48,186 nucleotides of DNA. Origin: Pseudobdellovibrionaceae bacterium (GTDB lineage: Bacteria > Bdellovibrionota > Bdellovibrionia > Bdellovibrionales > UBA1609). The stretch is from assembly GCA_030591685.1 (NCBI GenBank), contig JAUVAX010000016.1, forward strand, positions 1-48,186, written 5' to 3'. A model generated the notes under the pieces. The model was not told where the DNA came from. It saw nothing but the letters and a program-made list of their open reading frames with translations, and made no database searches. This document shows positions 6,987 to 46,212 of the stretch, piece after piece; the stretch's first letter is position 1; every line of letters starts with the position of its first letter. The position numbers and the translations under genes were made by a program.

Positions 6987-7811
6987 CTAAATCAGTCTCA
7001 GTGCGCTTTGTCCGTTTTGGTTAGCACTAGCTAAGACCCCAATGGCTGCGCTTTGTAAAATACTAGCAGATGCGAGCTCAGAGGTTTCGTGAGCAATATC
7101 AGCATCTTGTATTCTCGATTGTGCCGCAGAGAGGTTTTCGTTTTGTATGTCCAGATTACTTACAGTAACTTGTAATCTAGATTGAACAGCACCAAAGTCG
7201 GCTCGCATTTTACTGAGCTTCTCAATGGCGCTATCTACAGCTGAGAGTGTGTCCCTCGACCCGCTTTTATCAGTGATGTCGAGCCCATCAATACCGAGTT
7301 CTCCGGTTGTGGCGTCGGCATTCATCTCATATCTAATAATGTTTTCTTCTCCAGCAAATGGTCCAACATGGTACTCAAGTTCACCACCTGAGCCATTTAA
7401 AAGCTGTTTATTCCCAAACCTTGTGGATTGTGAAATACGCTCAGACTCTTTTATAAGTTGCTGTGCTTCTTGGTTTAAAAATTCTCGTTCTATATTACTG
7501 ACCGTATCACTGGCCCCCTGCACCCCAAGCTCTCTAAGCCTTATCAGGATGTTATTAATTTCATTCAACCCACCCTCACTAACTTGTATCAGTGACTGTG
7601 CGTTGTATGCATTGCTTCGAGCCATTCGGATCCCTTTAACTTGGCCCTTTATATTTTGTGATATCGCAAGGCCGGCGGCATCGTCGGCAGCGTTAACGAT
7701 TCGGCTCCCAGAAGCCAGAGCTGATTGTGCATGCTCTAATCGCCGTTGGTTTTTTGATAATTGCCTTTGTGCATTTATAGATGCTGTGTTTGTATTGATT
7801 CTTAAGCCCAT
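6987..7811 (-). CDS. fliC: Flagellin (copy D)
   Basis: Filament subunit, exported by the flagellar type III apparatus. The ATG at 7811 (MGLRINTNTASINAQ) is chosen because AGGGGG sits nine bases before it and the N-terminus then aligns with other flagellins. An ATG at 7850 would add 13 residues and lacks a good ribosome binding site. The 274 residues contain only the conserved coiled-coil ends D0/D1: GSRIVNAADDAAGLAIS near residue 47, LRELGVQGASDT near 105, and the C-terminal QSALRLI. There is almost no variable middle domain, so the filament would be thin-walled and smooth. It is a single unit with its own FliA-type promoter (8155-8181) and terminator. Confidence 0.95.
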   Translation of the reverse strand: MGLRINTNTASINAQRQLSKNQRRLEHAQSALASGSRIVNAADDAAGLAISQNIKGQVKGIRMARSNAYNAQSLIQVSEGGLNEINNILIRLRELGVQGASDTVSNIEREFLNQEAQQLIKESERISQSTRFGNKQLLNGSGGELEYHVGPFAGEENIIRYEMNADATTGELGIDGLDITDKSGSRDTLSAVDSAIEKLSKMRADFGAVQSRLQVTVSNLDIQNENLSAAQSRIQDADIAHETSELASASILQSAAIGVLASANQNGQSALRLI

Positions 7812-8039
7812 TGGTAAGCCCCCTAGTAGTATTGTTTTTTGCTCATCCATGTATTTTTCTTGCCACTTAAGACAGAGAGCTTACAAAAAAAGAAGGTTTT
7901 AATTAAAAAAAACTATAGTGGCTATAAAAATAGCACACAGCTTTTTTTAGATTAAAAAACTTCTAGTTATGGGCTTCTTTGCTTAATAGCAAGGACCACG
8001 TCCTAGTCTTTATTAAGTTGTTACTTGGAGACGCTCTAA

Positions 8040-8350: not shown

Positions 8351-9178
8351 TTATCCAATAAGCTTTCTGACTAATGTGGGGGCCTGATTGGCCTGTGCTA
8401 AGACGCTTGTAGAGAGCTCTTCAAGGATTCGAGCCCTTGTTAATTGAGCCATTTCACCAGCAACATCCACATCGGCAATAATTGAGCGAGCCTCTGAAAT
8501 GTTTTGGTGTTGAGAGGAAAGAGCGTCGATACTAAATTGAAACCGGCTTTGAGCTGAGCCAAACGTCGCTCGAGCCCTTAAGACCTGACCGAGGGCCCCA
8601 TCTAATTTTTCAATAGAATCTACGGCATCATCTTGGTCTGATATATTGAGGCCATCTATTTCAACCTCACTTGAGGTGGTGTTTGCATCTAGCTTAAATT
8701 TAATAATATTTTCGCTGCCGGCATTTGCCCCAACATGAAACGAAAACTCTTCATTATCGCCAACTAAAAGGTACTTTTGCCCGTACCTTGCCGACCGTGC
8801 AATACGGTCAAACTCCTGATTGAGGGATTGAAACTCCATGTCTAAGAACTCTCGTTCGTCTTTACCGACAGTATCAGAGGCGGCTTGAACGCCAATTTCT
8901 CTCATTCTTAAAAGGACATTGCTTTGCTCATTCAGGCTGCCTTCAGCTGTTTGTATAAAGGCCACGGCACTTTCGGCGTTAAGTTTGGCTTGTTTTAAGC
9001 CACTTATTTGAGACCTAAGGCCTTCGCTAATGGCAAAGCCGGCCACATCGCGACTGCCCTCGCCAACTCGCGAGCCAGAGGCCAGGGATTTTAGAGAGAT
9101 ATTAGTTTGTCTCTGCGATTTGTCCAAAAACCGTTGTGCCGTGAGAGACCCAACGTTTGTATTGATCCGAAAACTCAT
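8351..9178 (-). CDS. fliC: Divergent flagellin (copy E)
   Basis: The ATG at 9178 (MSFRINTNVGSLTAQ) is chosen over a GTG at 9184 because AGGGG lies seven bases before it and the N-terminus aligns with other flagellins. The 275-residue protein has only the D0/D1 ends. It differs from the other four copies at positions that are nearly invariant in this family: GEGSRDVAGFAIS where the others have KA(A/S)DDAAGLSIS or similar, MREIGVQAASDT instead of LRELGVQAASDT, and a C-terminus APTLVRKLIG instead of MPQSALRLIG. It may be a specialised subunit, for example at the base or tip of the filament. It has its own FliA-type promoter (9270-9296). Confidence 0.93.
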   Translation of the reverse strand: MSFRINTNVGSLTAQRFLDKSQRQTNISLKSLASGSRVGEGSRDVAGFAISEGLRSQISGLKQAKLNAESAVAFIQTAEGSLNEQSNVLLRMREIGVQAASDTVGKDEREFLDMEFQSLNQEFDRIARSARYGQKYLLVGDNEEFSFHVGANAGSENIIKFKLDANTTSSEVEIDGLNISDQDDAVDSIEKLDGALGQVLRARATFGSAQSRFQFSIDALSSQHQNISEARSIIADVDVAGEMAQLTRARILEELSTSVLAQANQAPTLVRKLIG

Positions 9179-9269
9179 TTTCACACCCCTATCTTACTTT
9201 TCCTTTCTTAAGCCCTAAAAAAAGAAGAGTAGCCCAGTTGTAGAGATGTTGTTTTAGCAGTCAGGGGGC

Positions 9270-17285: not shown

Positions 17286-18119
17286 ATGGCACTAGTTATA
17301 TCAACAAACATACCCTCAATAAATGCTCAAAAATCAATGAGTCAAACACAAAGAACACTACAAAAAACCATGGCCCAACTTTCATCGGGGTCAAGAATAA
17401 CAAAGGCCGCAGATGATGCCGCAGGCTTATCAATAAGTGAAAACTTAAAGTCTAACATAAGAGGCTACACACAGGCTCGTAGAAACGCCAACGACGGGAT
17501 CTCAATGATTCAAGTGGCTGAGGGTGGCCTTGCTGAGGTTTCAAATATATTAACGAGGCTCAGGGAGCTAGGCGTTCAGGCTGCTTCTGATACGATCGGA
17601 GATACAGAACGTGGATTTGTGAACAAAGAAGTTCAGCAATTAAAAAACGAAGTTCAACGTATTGCTAGTTCGACAAGGTTTAATGGCGCTCAGTTATTAG
17701 ATGGATCTGGGGGCGAGTTTTCCTTTCAGGTAGACATAGGTAATGATGATTTTAAAGATAGAATAACATTTGATACCTCAGAGCAGTCGGTGAACCTTTC
17801 TGATTTAAGTATTGATGGTTTTGATTTTTCATCCAACGATGGAGCCAGAGAGGCCCTAGAGCAACTCGATGCAAGCCAATCACAAGTGAACGGGCATAGA
17901 GCGAATTTAGGAGCCCTACAAAACAGACTCATATCTACAACAGAAAACCTAAGCACAGCAATTGAGAACTTTTCATCTGCAAACTCACGAATCAGAGACA
18001 CAGATGTTGCAGAATCAAGTGCAGCCCTTGCCTCAGCACAAATATTAGCTCAGGCTTCTGTGGGTGTTTTGGCTCAAGCCAATCAAATGCCTCAATCGGC
18101 ACTAAGGCTAATAGCTTAA
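17286..18119 (+). CDS. fliC: Flagellin (copy C)
   Basis: A 277-residue filament subunit with a strong ribosome binding site (AAGGAG) before the ATG. The N-terminus ISTNIPSINAQKSMSQTQ and the GSRITKAADDAAGLSISENL stretch (about 37-56) are standard D0/D1. LRELGVQAASDT is near 100. The middle (about 140-200) is short and acidic. The C-terminus MPQSALRLIA is typical. It is close to copies A and B but with a different middle. It is monocistronic with a FliA-type promoter and a terminator at 18178-18207. Confidence 0.96.
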   Translation: MALVISTNIPSINAQKSMSQTQRTLQKTMAQLSSGSRITKAADDAAGLSISENLKSNIRGYTQARRNANDGISMIQVAEGGLAEVSNILTRLRELGVQAASDTIGDTERGFVNKEVQQLKNEVQRIASSTRFNGAQLLDGSGGEFSFQVDIGNDDFKDRITFDTSEQSVNLSDLSIDGFDFSSNDGAREALEQLDASQSQVNGHRANLGALQNRLISTTENLSTAIENFSSANSRIRDTDVAESSAALASAQILAQASVGVLAQANQMPQSALRLIA

Positions 18120-18686: not shown

Positions 18687-18895
18687 ATACAAAGCAGCAG
18701 ACCTTGGACGGTCAGAACTTAGTTAAGCTTTTGAGTGACTGCTTAAGCTTAATTAAAAAAACTAAGTTCATTTCCTCAAGTTTCTTCTGCTCCAACATGT
18801 TCAACCAAGCCTATGATGGGCTGTTCTTGGCGGGCGGTTAGGGTCCGCCAAGAGCAGGGAAGATGGAATCTTTCTTAAAAAACGAGGAGAGTCTA
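18687..18895 (+). promoter_or_regulatory. Structured leader of flagellin A
   Basis: In order, the leader holds AGTGACTGCT (18734-18743), the palindromic word AACATGTT (18794-18801), a small hairpin AGCC/GGCT (18808-18822) around ATGAT, a 9-10 bp hairpin (18824-18854) whose loop contains GGTTAGG, and the ribosome binding site GAGGAG (18884-18889). The same order is found before flagellin B with compensating changes in the small hairpin. It could control translation or stability; the function is inferred. Confidence 0.45.
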
Positions 18896-19729
18896 ATGTC
18901 ACTCAACATCACAACAAACATAGCGTCTATAAACGCTCAAAAAACAATGGCCACGTCGCAACGAAGTTTAGAAAAGAGTTTTGCTCAACTTTCGTCGGGT
19001 TCAAGAATAACAAAGGCTTCAGATGATGCCGCTGGGTTATCTATAAGCGAAAACTTAAAATCAACAATCAGAGGCTACTATCAGGCCCAACGAAATGCTA
19101 ACGATGGTATTTCAATGATTCAAGTAGCAGAAGGGGGCTTGGCTGAAACCTCTAATATATTAACTCGTTTAAGAGAATTAGGAGTACAAGCCGCGTCAGA
19201 TACAGTTGGTGACACAGAGAGAGGCTTTATTAATCAAGAAGTTCAACAGTTAAAAAGTGAAGTTCAGCGTATTGCCGAATCTACCAGGTATAACGGAACA
19301 AACCTACTTGATGGTAGCGGTGAGGAGTTTTCATTTCAAATAGATATAGGCAATGATGAGTTCAGAGATCGAATTTCATTTGATGCTTCAGCTCAAGAGG
19401 TCACCCTGGGTGCACTTGATATATCTAACTTTGATTATGCTGAAAAAGACGGAGCCAGAGATGCGCTTTCTGTTTTAGAAGATGCTCAAACAAGCGTCAA
19501 CGGGCACAGGGCAACTCTTGGAGCACTTCAGAATCGCCTTATTTCGACTTCAGAGAATTTAAACAATGCTATTGAAAACTTTTCGGCAGCTAACTCTCGA
19601 ATTAGAGATACTGACGTAGCTCAATCTAGCGCCGACTTAGCAAAGGGCCAGGTTTTAAATGCAGCCTCTATTAGTGTCCTGGCTCAGGCCAATCAAATGC
19701 CGCAATCAGCACTTCGCTTAATAGGTTAA
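18896..19729 (+). CDS. fliC: Flagellin (copy A)
   Basis: The ATG at 18896 (MSLNITTNIASINAQ) is preferred to one at 18863: GAGGAG lies six bases before it, and the paralogue at 20205 starts at the same residue. The 277 residues have the D0/D1 ends (GSRITKASDDAAGLSIS near 37, LRELGVQAASDT near 100, MPQSALRLIG at the end) and a short middle. The protein is nearly identical to copy B. At DNA level the first 180 bases or so match B almost perfectly, while later parts differ at many silent sites. It is monocistronic with its own FliA-type promoter and terminator. Confidence 0.96.
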   Translation: MSLNITTNIASINAQKTMATSQRSLEKSFAQLSSGSRITKASDDAAGLSISENLKSTIRGYYQAQRNANDGISMIQVAEGGLAETSNILTRLRELGVQAASDTVGDTERGFINQEVQQLKSEVQRIAESTRYNGTNLLDGSGEEFSFQIDIGNDEFRDRISFDASAQEVTLGALDISNFDYAEKDGARDALSVLEDAQTSVNGHRATLGALQNRLISTSENLNNAIENFSAANSRIRDTDVAQSSADLAKGQVLNAASISVLAQANQMPQSALRLIG

Positions 19730-20204: not shown

Positions 20205-21038
20205 ATGTCACTCAATATAACAACAAACATAGCGTCTATAAACGCTCAAAAAACAATGGCCACGTCGCAAAGAAATTTAGAAAAGAGCTTTGCTCAACTT
20301 TCGTCGGGTTCAAGAATAACAAAGGCTTCAGATGATGCTGCGGGGCTATCTATAAGCGAAAACTTAAAATCAACAATCAGAGGCTACTATCAAGCACAGC
20401 GTAACGCGAGTGATGGTATTTCAATGATTCAAGTAGCTGAAGGAGGTTTGGCTGAAACCTCTAATATATTAACCCGTTTAAGGGAGCTAGGAGTTCAGGC
20501 CGCATCAGATACCGTTGGCAATACTGAACGAGGATTTATAAATAAAGAAGTTCAGCAGCTAAAAAGTGAGATTCAACGTATTTCTCAAGCAACAAGATAT
20601 AATGGTACAAACCTTTTAGATGGTAGCGGTGAAGAGTTTTCATTTCAGGTAGATATCGGTAATGATGATTTTAGAGATCGAATTTCATTCGATGCATCAG
20701 CACAAGAAAGCACATTAAGTGCTCTTGATGTAGGAAGCTTTGACTATTCAGATAAAGATGGCGCCAGGGAGGCACTTTCAGTTTTAGAGGACGCACAAAC
20801 TACTGTTAACGGTCACCGAGCAACGCTTGGTGCACTTCAAAATCGATTAATTTCAACCTCTGAGAACTTAAATAACGCCATTGAAAATTTCTCGGCGGCC
20901 AATTCTCGAATTAGAGATACAGATGTAGCTCAATCTAGTGCAGATTTAGCAAAGGGACAGGTTTTAAATGCAGCCGCAATTAGTGTTCTTTCGCAGGCCA
21001 ATCAAATGCCACAATCAGCACTTAGATTAATTGGATAA
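20205..21038 (+). CDS. fliC: Flagellin (copy B)
   Basis: A 277-residue filament subunit starting MSLNITTNIASINAQ, with AAAGGAGAG before the ATG. It has the same conserved parts as copy A (GSRITKASDDAAGLSIS, LRELGVQAASDT, MPQSALRLIG), and the main differences are in residues about 155-185. It is monocistronic, with a FliA-type promoter at 19964 and a terminator at 21105. It is the last filament gene before flaG-fliD-fliS. Confidence 0.96.
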   Translation: MSLNITTNIASINAQKTMATSQRNLEKSFAQLSSGSRITKASDDAAGLSISENLKSTIRGYYQAQRNASDGISMIQVAEGGLAETSNILTRLRELGVQAASDTVGNTERGFINKEVQQLKSEIQRISQATRYNGTNLLDGSGEEFSFQVDIGNDDFRDRISFDASAQESTLSALDVGSFDYSDKDGAREALSVLEDAQTTVNGHRATLGALQNRLISTSENLNNAIENFSAANSRIRDTDVAQSSADLAKGQVLNAAAISVLSQANQMPQSALRLIG

Positions 21039-42414: not shown

Positions 42415-43260
42415 ATGAGCTTTAACGTTATAAAAAATAATTTCAATAAATCTTTTTTTTGTATTTTTAGTCAAAAAAATGCTGGGTTTACATTGGTTGA
42501 AATACTAATGGTCATAATACTGGTGGGTATTTTAAGTGCTGTGTCGGTGAGTGTTCTTAATGACTCTGTTGACGATGGTCGATTTGATGAAACATTAAGT
42601 GAAATGCGCACAATTCGTGATGCTGTTATTGGCAATCAAAAATTACGAGAGGGCGGCACTCGAACTTCATTTGGTTACTTTGGTGATGTGGGGGCTATGC
42701 CTGCAGTAATAGGTGATTTAACAACGATCCCAGCGGGGGTGACAGCGTGGGTTGTAGACTCAGCTGAGCGGACGTCCTACGGTTGGAACGGCCCCTATTT
42801 GTCGGGTGGTGATTCGGGCGCTGACTATACAACCGATGCCTGGGGGACGGCCTATGTTTATACTCCAGGGGCGGTGCCACCGACTCTTGTGAGTCTGGGG
42901 GCCGACCGTGCTGTGGGCGGTACAGAGCTAAATCAAGATATAACTATTAATATGCCAGCCACAGAAAGGCTGGCCACTGTTGAGGGGTTTGTCTCTGACA
43001 GTGGAGGGCCTTACACCGGGGACTTGCAAATAGAATTAAACTATTCAAGCGGCACTGGTGGGCTCAACCAGGCCATGGTGACAAAGGCTTCACCCAGTGA
43101 TGGGCATTTTAGTTTTGCCAGTGTCCCTTTTGGGGTGAGGTCTATTACTGTGTACCAAGGCACAAAAGCTGTGCCTATTAGTACCGTGGGGCCTGTAGTA
43201 ATAACAGTAGATCGACCAAATGTTATGGTGCCCGCCAACCAGTTAGACATAAACCCCTAG
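42415..43260 (+). CDS. GspG-like pseudopilin with extra domain
   Basis: The product has 281 residues. A prepilin peptidase site G-F after residue 24 is followed by TLVEILMVIILVGILSAV, with Glu at mature position 5. The head has the GspG signature: GWNGPYLSGGD, DYTTDAWGTAYVYTPGA and VSLGADRAVGG. A small beta domain (about 185-281, carboxypeptidase-regulatory type, with EGFVSDSGGPYTGDLQIELN) is appended. The 24-residue leader is long and the ribosome binding site is poor. It is distant from any pilus or type II secretion assembly genes seen here. Confidence 0.82.
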   Translation: MSFNVIKNNFNKSFFCIFSQKNAGFTLVEILMVIILVGILSAVSVSVLNDSVDDGRFDETLSEMRTIRDAVIGNQKLREGGTRTSFGYFGDVGAMPAVIGDLTTIPAGVTAWVVDSAERTSYGWNGPYLSGGDSGADYTTDAWGTAYVYTPGAVPPTLVSLGADRAVGGTELNQDITINMPATERLATVEGFVSDSGGPYTGDLQIELNYSSGTGGLNQAMVTKASPSDGHFSFASVPFGVRSITVYQGTKAVPISTVGPVVITVDRPNVMVPANQLDINP

Positions 43261-43272
43261 GGAGGTTTCGCT

Positions 43273-46212
43273 ATAGGCTTACCGGATAAAAAATCAAAAA
43301 GGCTCAGCGGATTTACATTAATTGAGCTATTAATGATTATTATTTTAACGAGCATTTTAGCGACCGTTTCTGTAACCTTTCTTGTGGGGTCGCTCAGTGA
43401 GAGTCAATTTGAGGGGACAGTGTCTGAGATGCAAGCCCTTCGAAGCGCAATGGTGGGTCATGTAGGTTTAAAAGTAAGAGGGATTAGATCTCAATTTGGG
43501 TATGTTGGGGATGTAGGCGGTTTGCCGGCAACCATTGCAGACTTGCTCACTTTGCCAGCGGGGGTTTCAGCATGGGTTATAGATACAACAAATAGATTAG
43601 GGCATGGCTGGAATGGTCCTTACCTTAAAGGTGGGGACTCTGGCGGTGATTACACGACAGACGAATGGGGCAATGCCTATGTTTATACCCCGGGTGCGGC
43701 GCCGCCCACCCTTGTAAGCCTCGGTGCTGATGGTGTTGTTGGGGGCACGGGCTTAGATCAAGATATTACTTTTGAAATCCCACTCAATCACAGAGAGTCA
43801 ACGGTACAAGGTTTTATTGTCAACGGAGGCGCGGGGAACCCTATTGGGACGGCGGCTGATGTGACCTTGTATTACCCCGATGGTTCTGGTGGGCTGACAA
43901 CTAATTTACAAACCATACTTGCTGCAGCCAATGGCTTTTTTAGTTTTCCTAATATACCGGTTGGGGTGCGGTCAGTATTATTAAATGTTTCAGGGGTGGA
44001 TTATGGCCCTTATATATTTACAGTAGATAAAAATAATTATGTCATACCTGTAAGTTTAACTGACATAGCAACCCCTGCCCCTGATTGCACAGGTATAACT
44101 ATATATTTTCAATCACAGACCTCTAATGGTTCAGAAACAATAACAGCTGTTAATTTAATTGTAGAGGCCAGTGGGATTTGTGGTGCCGATATGACAGTCG
44201 ATTATGTGCTCGCCGACGGCACAGCTGTTTCATCTCCACCTAGTCAGAGAGACTATTTTGCAGACACAGGGACAGTGACTATTTTAGCAGGGACCACGAC
44301 AGCTAATGTGCCCGTAAAACTTAAAAATGATAACAATGCTGAGCTGAGTGAGTTTCTCACAGCCACTATCTCTAACCCAACCCCTCTCGGAGAGGCCACT
44401 TTAGGTTTGTTTACGGTTCACACCTTTACGATTAACGATGACGAAAACCCCCTTGTTTATTATGTGAGAAAAACAGGCAACGATGTGAACTCTGGCATTG
44501 TGCCGTCAGACGCATGGTTAACAATAGACTTTGCGGCCTCAACATTAATAGCCGGTAAGACCGTATACGTGGGTGCGGGTACTTATGTAGAGCAAGTAGT
44601 AATGGATAACTCAGGGACTGTTGGTAGCCCCATAATTTTTAAAGCTGACACGGATGGTACAAATACAGGCGATGCCGGAGATGTGTTTGTGCAACAGGCC
44701 GGACAGGATGTTTTTTACGCCACTGGTAAATCATATGTCACTGTGGATGGCTTTTATATTAATTCAGGGGCACGGGCGTTTAACTTTGAAACCTCAGGTA
44801 CTGGCAATAGTATTGTTAATAATACTATTGATGGCATGACAAATGAAGGCCTTCGCTTGGATAACCAAACAGGTGCCAAAGTAGATAGTAATGTTATTTT
44901 TAACTGCACAACTGAGGCCATTTATTTATCGGCAAATGCGACGGGTTGTGAGGTGAATAATAATTTAATGTACTCAAATAACATAGGTGTATATTCGATT
45001 AATAATACAGGCAGTGAGTTAGTCAGAAACAATACCATTTATAACAACACAAGTGACGGCATTGTAACCTCGACAGGGTCAACACTTGTTGCCAATAATA
45101 ATATTATTGTTAATAACGGTACCGGGTTAAATCAAAGTGCCGGGTCATTAACTTCTGATTATAATGATGTTTGGAACAATACAACAAACTACACCTCTGT
45201 GGCCGTTGGAGCTAATGATTTAAGTACAGACGCACAGTTTGTAAACGCGGCGGCTTTTGATTTTCATGTTAATAATTTAAATGCCACTATAGATGCCGGC
45301 AATGCTGCGGCCACTACGATAGTAATGGCTGACGGGGTGGACCTTTCTTTCAAATCCACCCGTGCGGATGAGGGGCCTGATGGGACCTCTGATGGGGCCA
45401 CTGTAAACATGGGCTTTCATTATTATACAAGTATTTTGCCACCACCATCAGGGTGCACCGCTGGTAGCTACACGGCCACCGTTGACGAAGTTTTTACGGT
45501 TCCCGTATTGTGTACGTCACTTATAATTAAAGCCTGGGGCGGCGGCGGCGGTGCGGGCTCAAACAGTAATGTTCGTGCCGGAGATGGCGGGGGGGCTGGC
45601 TATGCCTACTCAAATACTTTAACCGTAATCCCAGGCGATACCTATACGGTCACAATTGGTAAAGGTGGCAACGGCGGGGCTGCCGCGTGCGTTGCTGGTG
45701 GCACCGGTGGTTATGGTGGCGGAGCTAAGGGATCACTCTCAGTAGGCGGCGCTGGTGCTGGTGGAGGTGCTGGTGGTGCTGCAGGGGCTGCAGGCTCTTA
45801 CGCTGGTGGCGCTGGTGGTTACGGTGGCGGTGGCGGTGGCGGTGGAAGTACCGCTATTGGTATTGGCGGCCAAGGTGGTGCGGCCACAGTGATCGTTGAT
45901 GACCAAACAACCACAGAAATTATTATTGCCGGTGGTGGTGGTGCCGGTGGTGGTGGAGCTAGCGCTGGTGGTGGTGGTAATGCCGGGGCAGGCGGCCCGG
46001 GATGCTCTCAAAATGGGGGCGCCAGTGCTGATGTACAAAGGGGCGGCGGCGGCGGCGGCGGCGCCTGCTTGGGGGATAACTCGGGCAATGGCGCCGGGAC
46101 GACTCCGTCAAATTCAGGTCAAGCCGCAGGCGGCGGTGAAGGGGGCTCGCCCAGTGGGAGTTGCAACAATGCTAACGGTACAGATGGTTTAGTTACTTTT
46201 GAATTCAGTTAA
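43273..46212 (+). CDS. Giant pseudopilin-adhesin (GspG head, Calx-beta, beta-helix, glycine-rich)
   Basis: The chosen start is ATA 43273, giving 979 residues, because GGGAGG (43260-43265) lies seven bases before it. The first ATG, at 43333, falls inside the prepilin helix and would remove the cleavage site. From ATA there is a 13-residue basic leader, then G-F-TLIELLMIIILTSIL (E at mature 5) and a GspG-like head (HGWNGPYLKGGD, TTDEWGNAYVYTPGA, SLGADGVVGG). A regulatory-type beta domain (about 185-260), a Calx-beta domain (about 270-395, ending FTINDDE), a right-handed beta-helix (about 396-700, with repeated NNTI/NNNLM rungs), and a glycine-rich C-terminal domain (about 720-979, runs of G with A and S) follow. 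It is probably a surface adhesin carried on a pseudopilus. Confidence 0.75.
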   Translation: MGLPDKKSKRLSGFTLIELLMIIILTSILATVSVTFLVGSLSESQFEGTVSEMQALRSAMVGHVGLKVRGIRSQFGYVGDVGGLPATIADLLTLPAGVSAWVIDTTNRLGHGWNGPYLKGGDSGGDYTTDEWGNAYVYTPGAAPPTLVSLGADGVVGGTGLDQDITFEIPLNHRESTVQGFIVNGGAGNPIGTAADVTLYYPDGSGGLTTNLQTILAAANGFFSFPNIPVGVRSVLLNVSGVDYGPYIFTVDKNNYVIPVSLTDIATPAPDCTGITIYFQSQTSNGSETITAVNLIVEASGICGADMTVDYVLADGTAVSSPPSQRDYFADTGTVTILAGTTTANVPVKLKNDNNAELSEFLTATISNPTPLGEATLGLFTVHTFTINDDENPLVYYVRKTGNDVNSGIVPSDAWLTIDFAASTLIAGKTVYVGAGTYVEQVVMDNSGTVGSPIIFKADTDGTNTGDAGDVFVQQAGQDVFYATGKSYVTVDGFYINSGARAFNFETSGTGNSIVNNTIDGMTNEGLRLDNQTGAKVDSNVIFNCTTEAIYLSANATGCEVNNNLMYSNNIGVYSINNTGSELVRNNTIYNNTSDGIVTSTGSTLVANNNIIVNNGTGLNQSAGSLTSDYNDVWNNTTNYTSVAVGANDLSTDAQFVNAAAFDFHVNNLNATIDAGNAAATTIVMADGVDLSFKSTRADEGPDGTSDGATVNMGFHYYTSILPPPSGCTAGSYTATVDEVFTVPVLCTSLIIKAWGGGGGAGSNSNVRAGDGGGAGYAYSNTLTVIPGDTYTVTIGKGGNGGAAACVAGGTGGYGGGAKGSLSVGGAGAGGGAGGAAGAAGSYAGGAGGYGGGGGGGGSTAIGIGGQGGAATVIVDDQTTTEIIIAGGGGAGGGGASAGGGGNAGAGGPGCSQNGGASADVQRGGGGGGGACLGDNSGNGAGTTPSNSGQAAGGGEGGSPSGSCNNANGTDGLVTFEFS

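Follow-up and report, generated by a model that had tools for sequence, protein, structure and literature searches.

A Bdellovibrio-related bacterium encodes a 979-residue modular pilin with putative adhesin cargo and a probable link to an MSHA-type pilus

Modular pilins are common: more than 1,200 such proteins with diverse architectures are known, and the most extreme multi-domain example in the 2021 survey has 860 residues (PMC8179133). In S. sanguinis, the modular pilins PilB and PilC carry a vWA and a lectin module, respectively, and these grafted modules mediate adhesion (PMC8179133). The MSH class of pili, to which the Vibrio MSHA pilus belongs, has mshA, mshE, mshG, mshL and mshM as mandatory genes, and the survey of this class names gamma- and epsilonproteobacteria and Chrysiogenetes, not the Bdellovibrio-related lineage (PMC6668835). 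The Kil pilus of Myxococcus has several tip paralogues per genome, linked to prey killing by the analysis of mutants (PMC12075869).

The gene described here (43273-46212, forward strand, as are all its features) lies in a 48,186-nucleotide stretch of contig JAUVAX010000016.1 from a Pseudobdellovibrionaceae bacterium (the window, the whole stretch of DNA analysed). Its product has 979 residues and so exceeds the 860-residue extreme of the 2021 survey (PMC8179133). It is like the S. sanguinis modular type IV pilins in uniting a small pilin module with a grafted putative binding domain in what is probably a low-abundance subunit, and unlike them in the Ig-like domain added to its carrier, the bare paralogue that often accompanies it, its cargo of about 710 residues and its link to an MSHA-type system (PMC8179133). 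The Myxococcus Kil/Tad pilus is similar in that its tip is customised by large minor pilins whose C-terminal domains vary, but both its machine (Tad) and its pilin type differ (PMC12075869). The modular pilin is therefore already known as a kind; the new details are the carrier family, the size, the MSHA link in this lineage and the ATA start. No paper on the carrier family was found in a literature search excluding most subscription journals. The large MshQ protein of Vibrio is not known as a pilin.

The giant gene lies in one uninterrupted frame of 983 codons that starts at 43261 and closes with the stop codon at 46210-46212; with its predicted ATA start, the gene itself comprises 979 codons and the stop. 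A preliminary description of this DNA had proposed a pilin front with an intact prepilin peptidase site, followed by a Calx-beta domain, a right-handed beta-helix and a glycine-rich end, about 980 residues in all. The reading frame and a Pfam search bore out both the layout and the site, with Gly_rich_2 just under its cut-off. The type III signal leader IGLPDKKSKRLSG (43273-43311, residues 1-13) ends within the motif KRLSG/FTLIE, which has Gly-1, Phe+1 and Glu+5; cleavage is predicted between the G and the F, after Gly13. Pfam N_methyl matched residues 10-32 with 18.5 bits on the product (cut-off 21.2) and with 24 bits, above cut-off, in the genome search. The pilin module (43312-43782, residues 14-170) comprises, according to Pfam and AlphaFold, a long N-terminal helix and a T2SSG-type head (Pfam T2SSG, residues 97-166, 43561-43770; 32.9 bits, cut-off 21). 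The next domain, absent from the preliminary list, is a prealbumin/CarboxypepD_reg-like (Ig-like) domain (43783-44067, residues ~171-265). It forms part of the constant carrier, is conserved in A1 and A2, and in a relative (L042) matches CarboxypepD_reg and SpaA.

Beyond a linker (44068-44094), a low-confidence stretch of the model with residues 270-278 at or just past it, lies a cargo of at least three modules. These are the Calx-beta domain (44095-44442, residues 275-390; Pfam 36.6 bits, cut-off 27), the right-handed beta-helix module (44449-45426, residues ~393-720; Pfam Beta_helix at residues 509-649, 44797-45219, 56.3 bits, cut-off 25.9) and the glycine-rich C-terminal module (45433-46209, residues ~721-979, 36% Gly; Gly_rich_2 at residues 740-977, 21.1 bits, cut-off 24.3). 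Calx-beta and Beta_helix, the non-pilus domains joined through this linker, are modules that also occur on non-pilins. The domain-wise structure prediction was confident for the front of the protein and weak for its end. AlphaFold modelled residues 14-392 (379 mature residues, 76 sequences) with a mean pLDDT of 87 as a 47-residue N-terminal helix, a pilin head, the Ig-like domain, the linker and the Calx-beta domain. In a Foldseek search the modelled Calx-beta domain resembled those of CALX (CBD1), NCX and integrin beta4 (TM ~0.78 by target length). The full-length prediction had a mean pLDDT of 57 and was low across the cargo past Calx-beta, no homologues being aligned for the beta-helix and glycine-rich parts, so the fold assignments of these two parts rest on Pfam.

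The frame shows no break upstream, in keeping with the preliminary description, but translation of the prepilin segment, with its class III signal, Gly-1 and hydrophobic helix, depends on the non-standard ATA start. A sequence scan found no ATG, GTG or TTG in any frame between the TAG at 43258-43260 and the prepilin motif. The first canonical in-frame start, the ATG at 43333, lies within the pilin transmembrane helix, and translation from it would therefore lose the prepilin signal. On sequence grounds, ATA 43273 is the sole plausible initiator of the giant pilin. A Shine-Dalgarno-like GGAGGT (43261-43266) lies immediately 3' of the upstream stop codon, with a 6-nt spacer to the ATA. In sampled DNA of the same genome this hexamer has a frequency of about one per 9,500 bases, so its ideal placement before the ATA is unlikely to be due to chance, and a ribosome site with at least six matching bases was found for 12 of 92 sampled ORFs. 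The best explanation for translation of the giant pilin appears to be initiation directed by this GGAGGT. AUA and AUU starts combined with an extended Shine-Dalgarno sequence reach ~10% of AUG expression in S. aureus, and in one case up to 30%, so a minor pilin with such a weak start is plausible (PMC13009471).

The missing canonical start ahead of the prepilin motif could also mean that the ATA is not a real start: either an ATG-to-ATA mutation silenced a decaying gene, or a consensus error in the draft assembly hides an ordinary ATG. The ATG starts of the giants in the relatives G018 and G007 would agree with this. Decay or error is nevertheless unlikely, as all 979 codons are still open with every domain intact, the strong GGAGGT is retained at the ideal distance, and AUA starts with a strong Shine-Dalgarno sequence have been demonstrated in S. 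aureus (PMC13009471). Moreover, the error version of this explanation leaves the modular-pilin reading unaffected.

The gene upstream (42415-43260, forward strand) encodes a bare paralogue, a 281-residue carrier without cargo that is 51% identical to the giant. It ends at the TAG at 43258-43260 in the giant's frame and is probably its operon partner; no convincing terminator was found between the two genes. The common frame with one stop between the ORFs would permit read-through of TAG 43258 into a fusion of both pilins of ~1,265 residues. Such a product is extremely improbable: the ribosome site follows directly after the stop, the second prepilin helix would end up internal, and the fusion is absent from all relatives inspected. 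The carrier pair is set among housekeeping genes, away from the pilus cluster of this genome. No Rfam RNA, tRNA or tmRNA was found in the window, which also carries five flagellin genes on both strands (6987-7850, 8351-9184, 17286-18119, 18863-19729 and 20205-21038).

The giant shares its T2SSG-type head with the GspG/PulG pseudopilins and is unlike them in size, Ig-like extension, cargo and a score far under the equivalog cut-off. The preliminary description had named it a GspG-type pseudopilin, and this assignment did not survive comparison with the equivalog model TIGR01710 (cut-off 88.85 bits): the giant scored 43.9 bits, about half of the cut-off. The T2SSG match and the presence of a type II secretion system in the same genome would suit a pseudopilin of that system. 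However, its operon, on contig C6, already encodes a GspG of its own (102.5 bits), and the carrier tracks an MshM-like ATPase and sits in MSHA-type clusters, so membership of the type II system is very unlikely.

The pilus system with which the carrier is associated, on contigs C69 and C47, is MSHA-type as judged by its gene content. The two contigs encode an MshEN-type ATPase, a secretin, an MshM-like AAA ATPase, a GspF-type protein, GspG-like pilins and a pilin without Glu5. In relatives, the cluster additionally contains TPR MshN-like, PilM, PilN and PilO-like genes, the TPR proteins adjoining mshM/pilM at L029:3686-4450 (G018) and L024:18215-18982 (G007). The TPR MshN-like gene was not seen in the genome under study, where contig C69 ends at mshM. 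The clustering of MshM-like, TPR MshN-like and PilM/N/O-like genes with a secretin, an MshEN ATPase, a platform protein and several pilins is like that of the Vibrio MSHA pilus, a member of the MSH class (PMC6668835). Unlike the Vibrio system, the cluster here missed the curated MshL score (118 against 250), and the PilQ cut-off was likewise not reached; the term MSHA-type, rather than MSHA, is used for this reason. Among the pilins on C69 and C47, no single one was marked out as MshA. As in the Vibrio system, a prepilin peptidase was not seen in the MSHA-type clusters that were read; the genome has two prepilin-peptidase (A24) genes.

The association itself is one of co-occurrence and position. 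The MshM-like ATPase was found in 5 of 47 genomes of the same family, and all five are among the six that bear the carrier (3.9e-6 if the genomes were independent). The sixth, G017, is a fragmented genome with a carrier and no MshM match. In G007, G037 and G020 the carrier is situated inside the pilus cluster. Secretin co-occurrence was less useful, since other secretins match too, and PilY1 was unmatched here, but the control genomes were equally silent. Glu5 is invariant among the carriers, and the giant itself is therefore not a usual Glu5-less (GspK-type) cap pilin. A small pilin-like protein without Glu5 is present in the Bdellovibrionota clusters examined (L028:4376-4882, with relatives in L023, L024, L025, L027 and L032) and is a candidate tip cap; the copy at L028:4376-4882, from the genome under study, matched no family in Pfam or NCBIfam scans. 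The 5' end of the MshM-like gene, ~125 bases of it, recurs at three contig ends (L028/L030; C69, C47), which suggests that this gene is duplicated and broke the assembly; G020 likewise has two MshM-like copies. On contig C64, two adjacent ATPases look like the PilB/PilT pair of a T4a pilus, judging by adjacency and frame lengths only.

The carrier, the first ~265 residues of the giant, occurs in 6 of the 47 family genomes, often as a bare copy together with a cargo-bearing one. Among Bdellovibrionota relatives the first ~256 residues past the leader are 40-54% conserved. A scan of GTDB contigs yielded 77 carrier loci, mostly in Zixiibacteriota and at ~30-38% identity, with at least two copies at 51 of them and ORF lengths grouping near 245, near 385-420, and above. 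In the preliminary description the domain order was to be sought in relatives; the pilin/Ig-like carrier is conserved there, but the cargo behind it differs. In G018 and G007 the cargo consists of Calx-beta, Fn3 and a 350-residue domain, in G037 and G017 of tails of 140-220 residues, and G020 has none; more distant carrier loci have LamG lectin or Fn3 cargo.

The histories of carrier and cargo also differ. In the carrier tree the giant of the genome under study pairs with that of G018 (99/97), although past Calx-beta the two differ in cargo; a second pair is formed by the carriers of G007 and G017 (99/98). Between G018 and G007 the cargo is 60% identical and the carriers are 44% identical. The modules recur on proteins other than the carrier pilins: the 350-residue domain of G018 and G007 is also found on a lipoprotein of the genome under study (40%), the beta-helix module is 38% identical to the C-terminal module of a protein with 17 Calx-beta repeats in G010, and the glycine-rich end is ~50% identical to lipoprotein ends in G007 and to secreted proteins of G150 and G168. 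No cargo relative was found in the viral contigs searched. The variation of the cargo, the mismatch between G018 and G007 and the presence of the modules on lipoproteins and surface proteins together are what is expected of an exchangeable display module. By these comparisons, cargo and carrier move independently of each other, and the family is a clear natural example of a constant carrier on which cargo has been exchanged, the bare paralogue serving as a built-in control. Two secreted proteins with the same glycine-rich module (L118:1367-2386 and L119:1055-2143) each adjoin a gene with fibre-like 'GDxMTGT' repeats, which may have a connection with the chimeric fibres known from Bdellovibrio.

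The cargo had been suggested to be either a presented adhesin or a fibre-bound enzyme. Presentation of the cargo by a filament is supported, and an adhesin is favoured by the Fn3 and LamG lectin modules, both of a binding type, that this carrier bears in relatives. Right-handed beta-helices are frequent in polysaccharide lyases and hydrolases, and ~54 residues of the product resemble a GH120 xylosidase, as might be expected of a fibre-borne polysaccharidase. This match takes in only the first part of the beta-helix region, and catalytic residues therefore cannot be compared; the Pfam search of the product found no glycosidase or lyase family, and sister carriers have lectin, Fn3 or no cargo. 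An enzymatic cargo is thus improbable.

The reading favoured here, which we regard as fairly likely, is that the giant is a low-abundance modular minor pilin that presents a putative adhesin on an MSHA-type pilus, probably close to its tip. Its leader would be cut by one of the two A24 prepilin peptidases, and the MSHA-type assembly machine (MshE-, MshG- and MshL-like; C69, C47) would incorporate it as a rare subunit. The filament would then carry the bulky C-terminal end outward as a surface adhesin directed at a surface, prey or matrix. Of the two placements in the preliminary description, at a tip or sparsely distributed, the likelier would be one at or near the tip, alongside the bare paralogue and the small Glu5-less pilin encoded by the cluster, although either may hold. 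The weak ATA start combined with the strong ribosome site may keep the giant subunit scarce, and a low amount fits the expectation for a minor or tip subunit. Counting against this reading are the distance of the pair from the pilus cluster, the G017 carrier without an MshM match, the MSHA scores under the curated cut-offs, the Glu5 that a usual cap would lack, the non-standard start codon and the low-confidence model of the cargo. Modular pilins in a Bdellovibrio-related lineage may bear very large multi-domain cargo and be linked to an MSHA-type system, and they are candidates for recognising surfaces or prey in a group whose adhesion is poorly understood.

A broader reading is tentative and on balance doubtful. 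The carrier family common to Bdellovibrionota and Zixiibacteriota would be a general display platform, in which a constant pilin and Ig-like base takes up exchangeable adhesins derived from surface lipoproteins of the same cell. The giant, the bare paralogue and the Glu5-less cap would together make up an MSHA-type tip of three parts, with the AUA start limiting the dose of the giant. If so, swapped tips would set the choice of prey or surface in predatory lineages. A second large prepilin is encoded elsewhere in the same genome, on contig C73 (L005:10352-12595); its product has 747 residues with three Calx-beta domains, and the gene begins at a TTG codon and stands in a row of minor-pilin-like genes.
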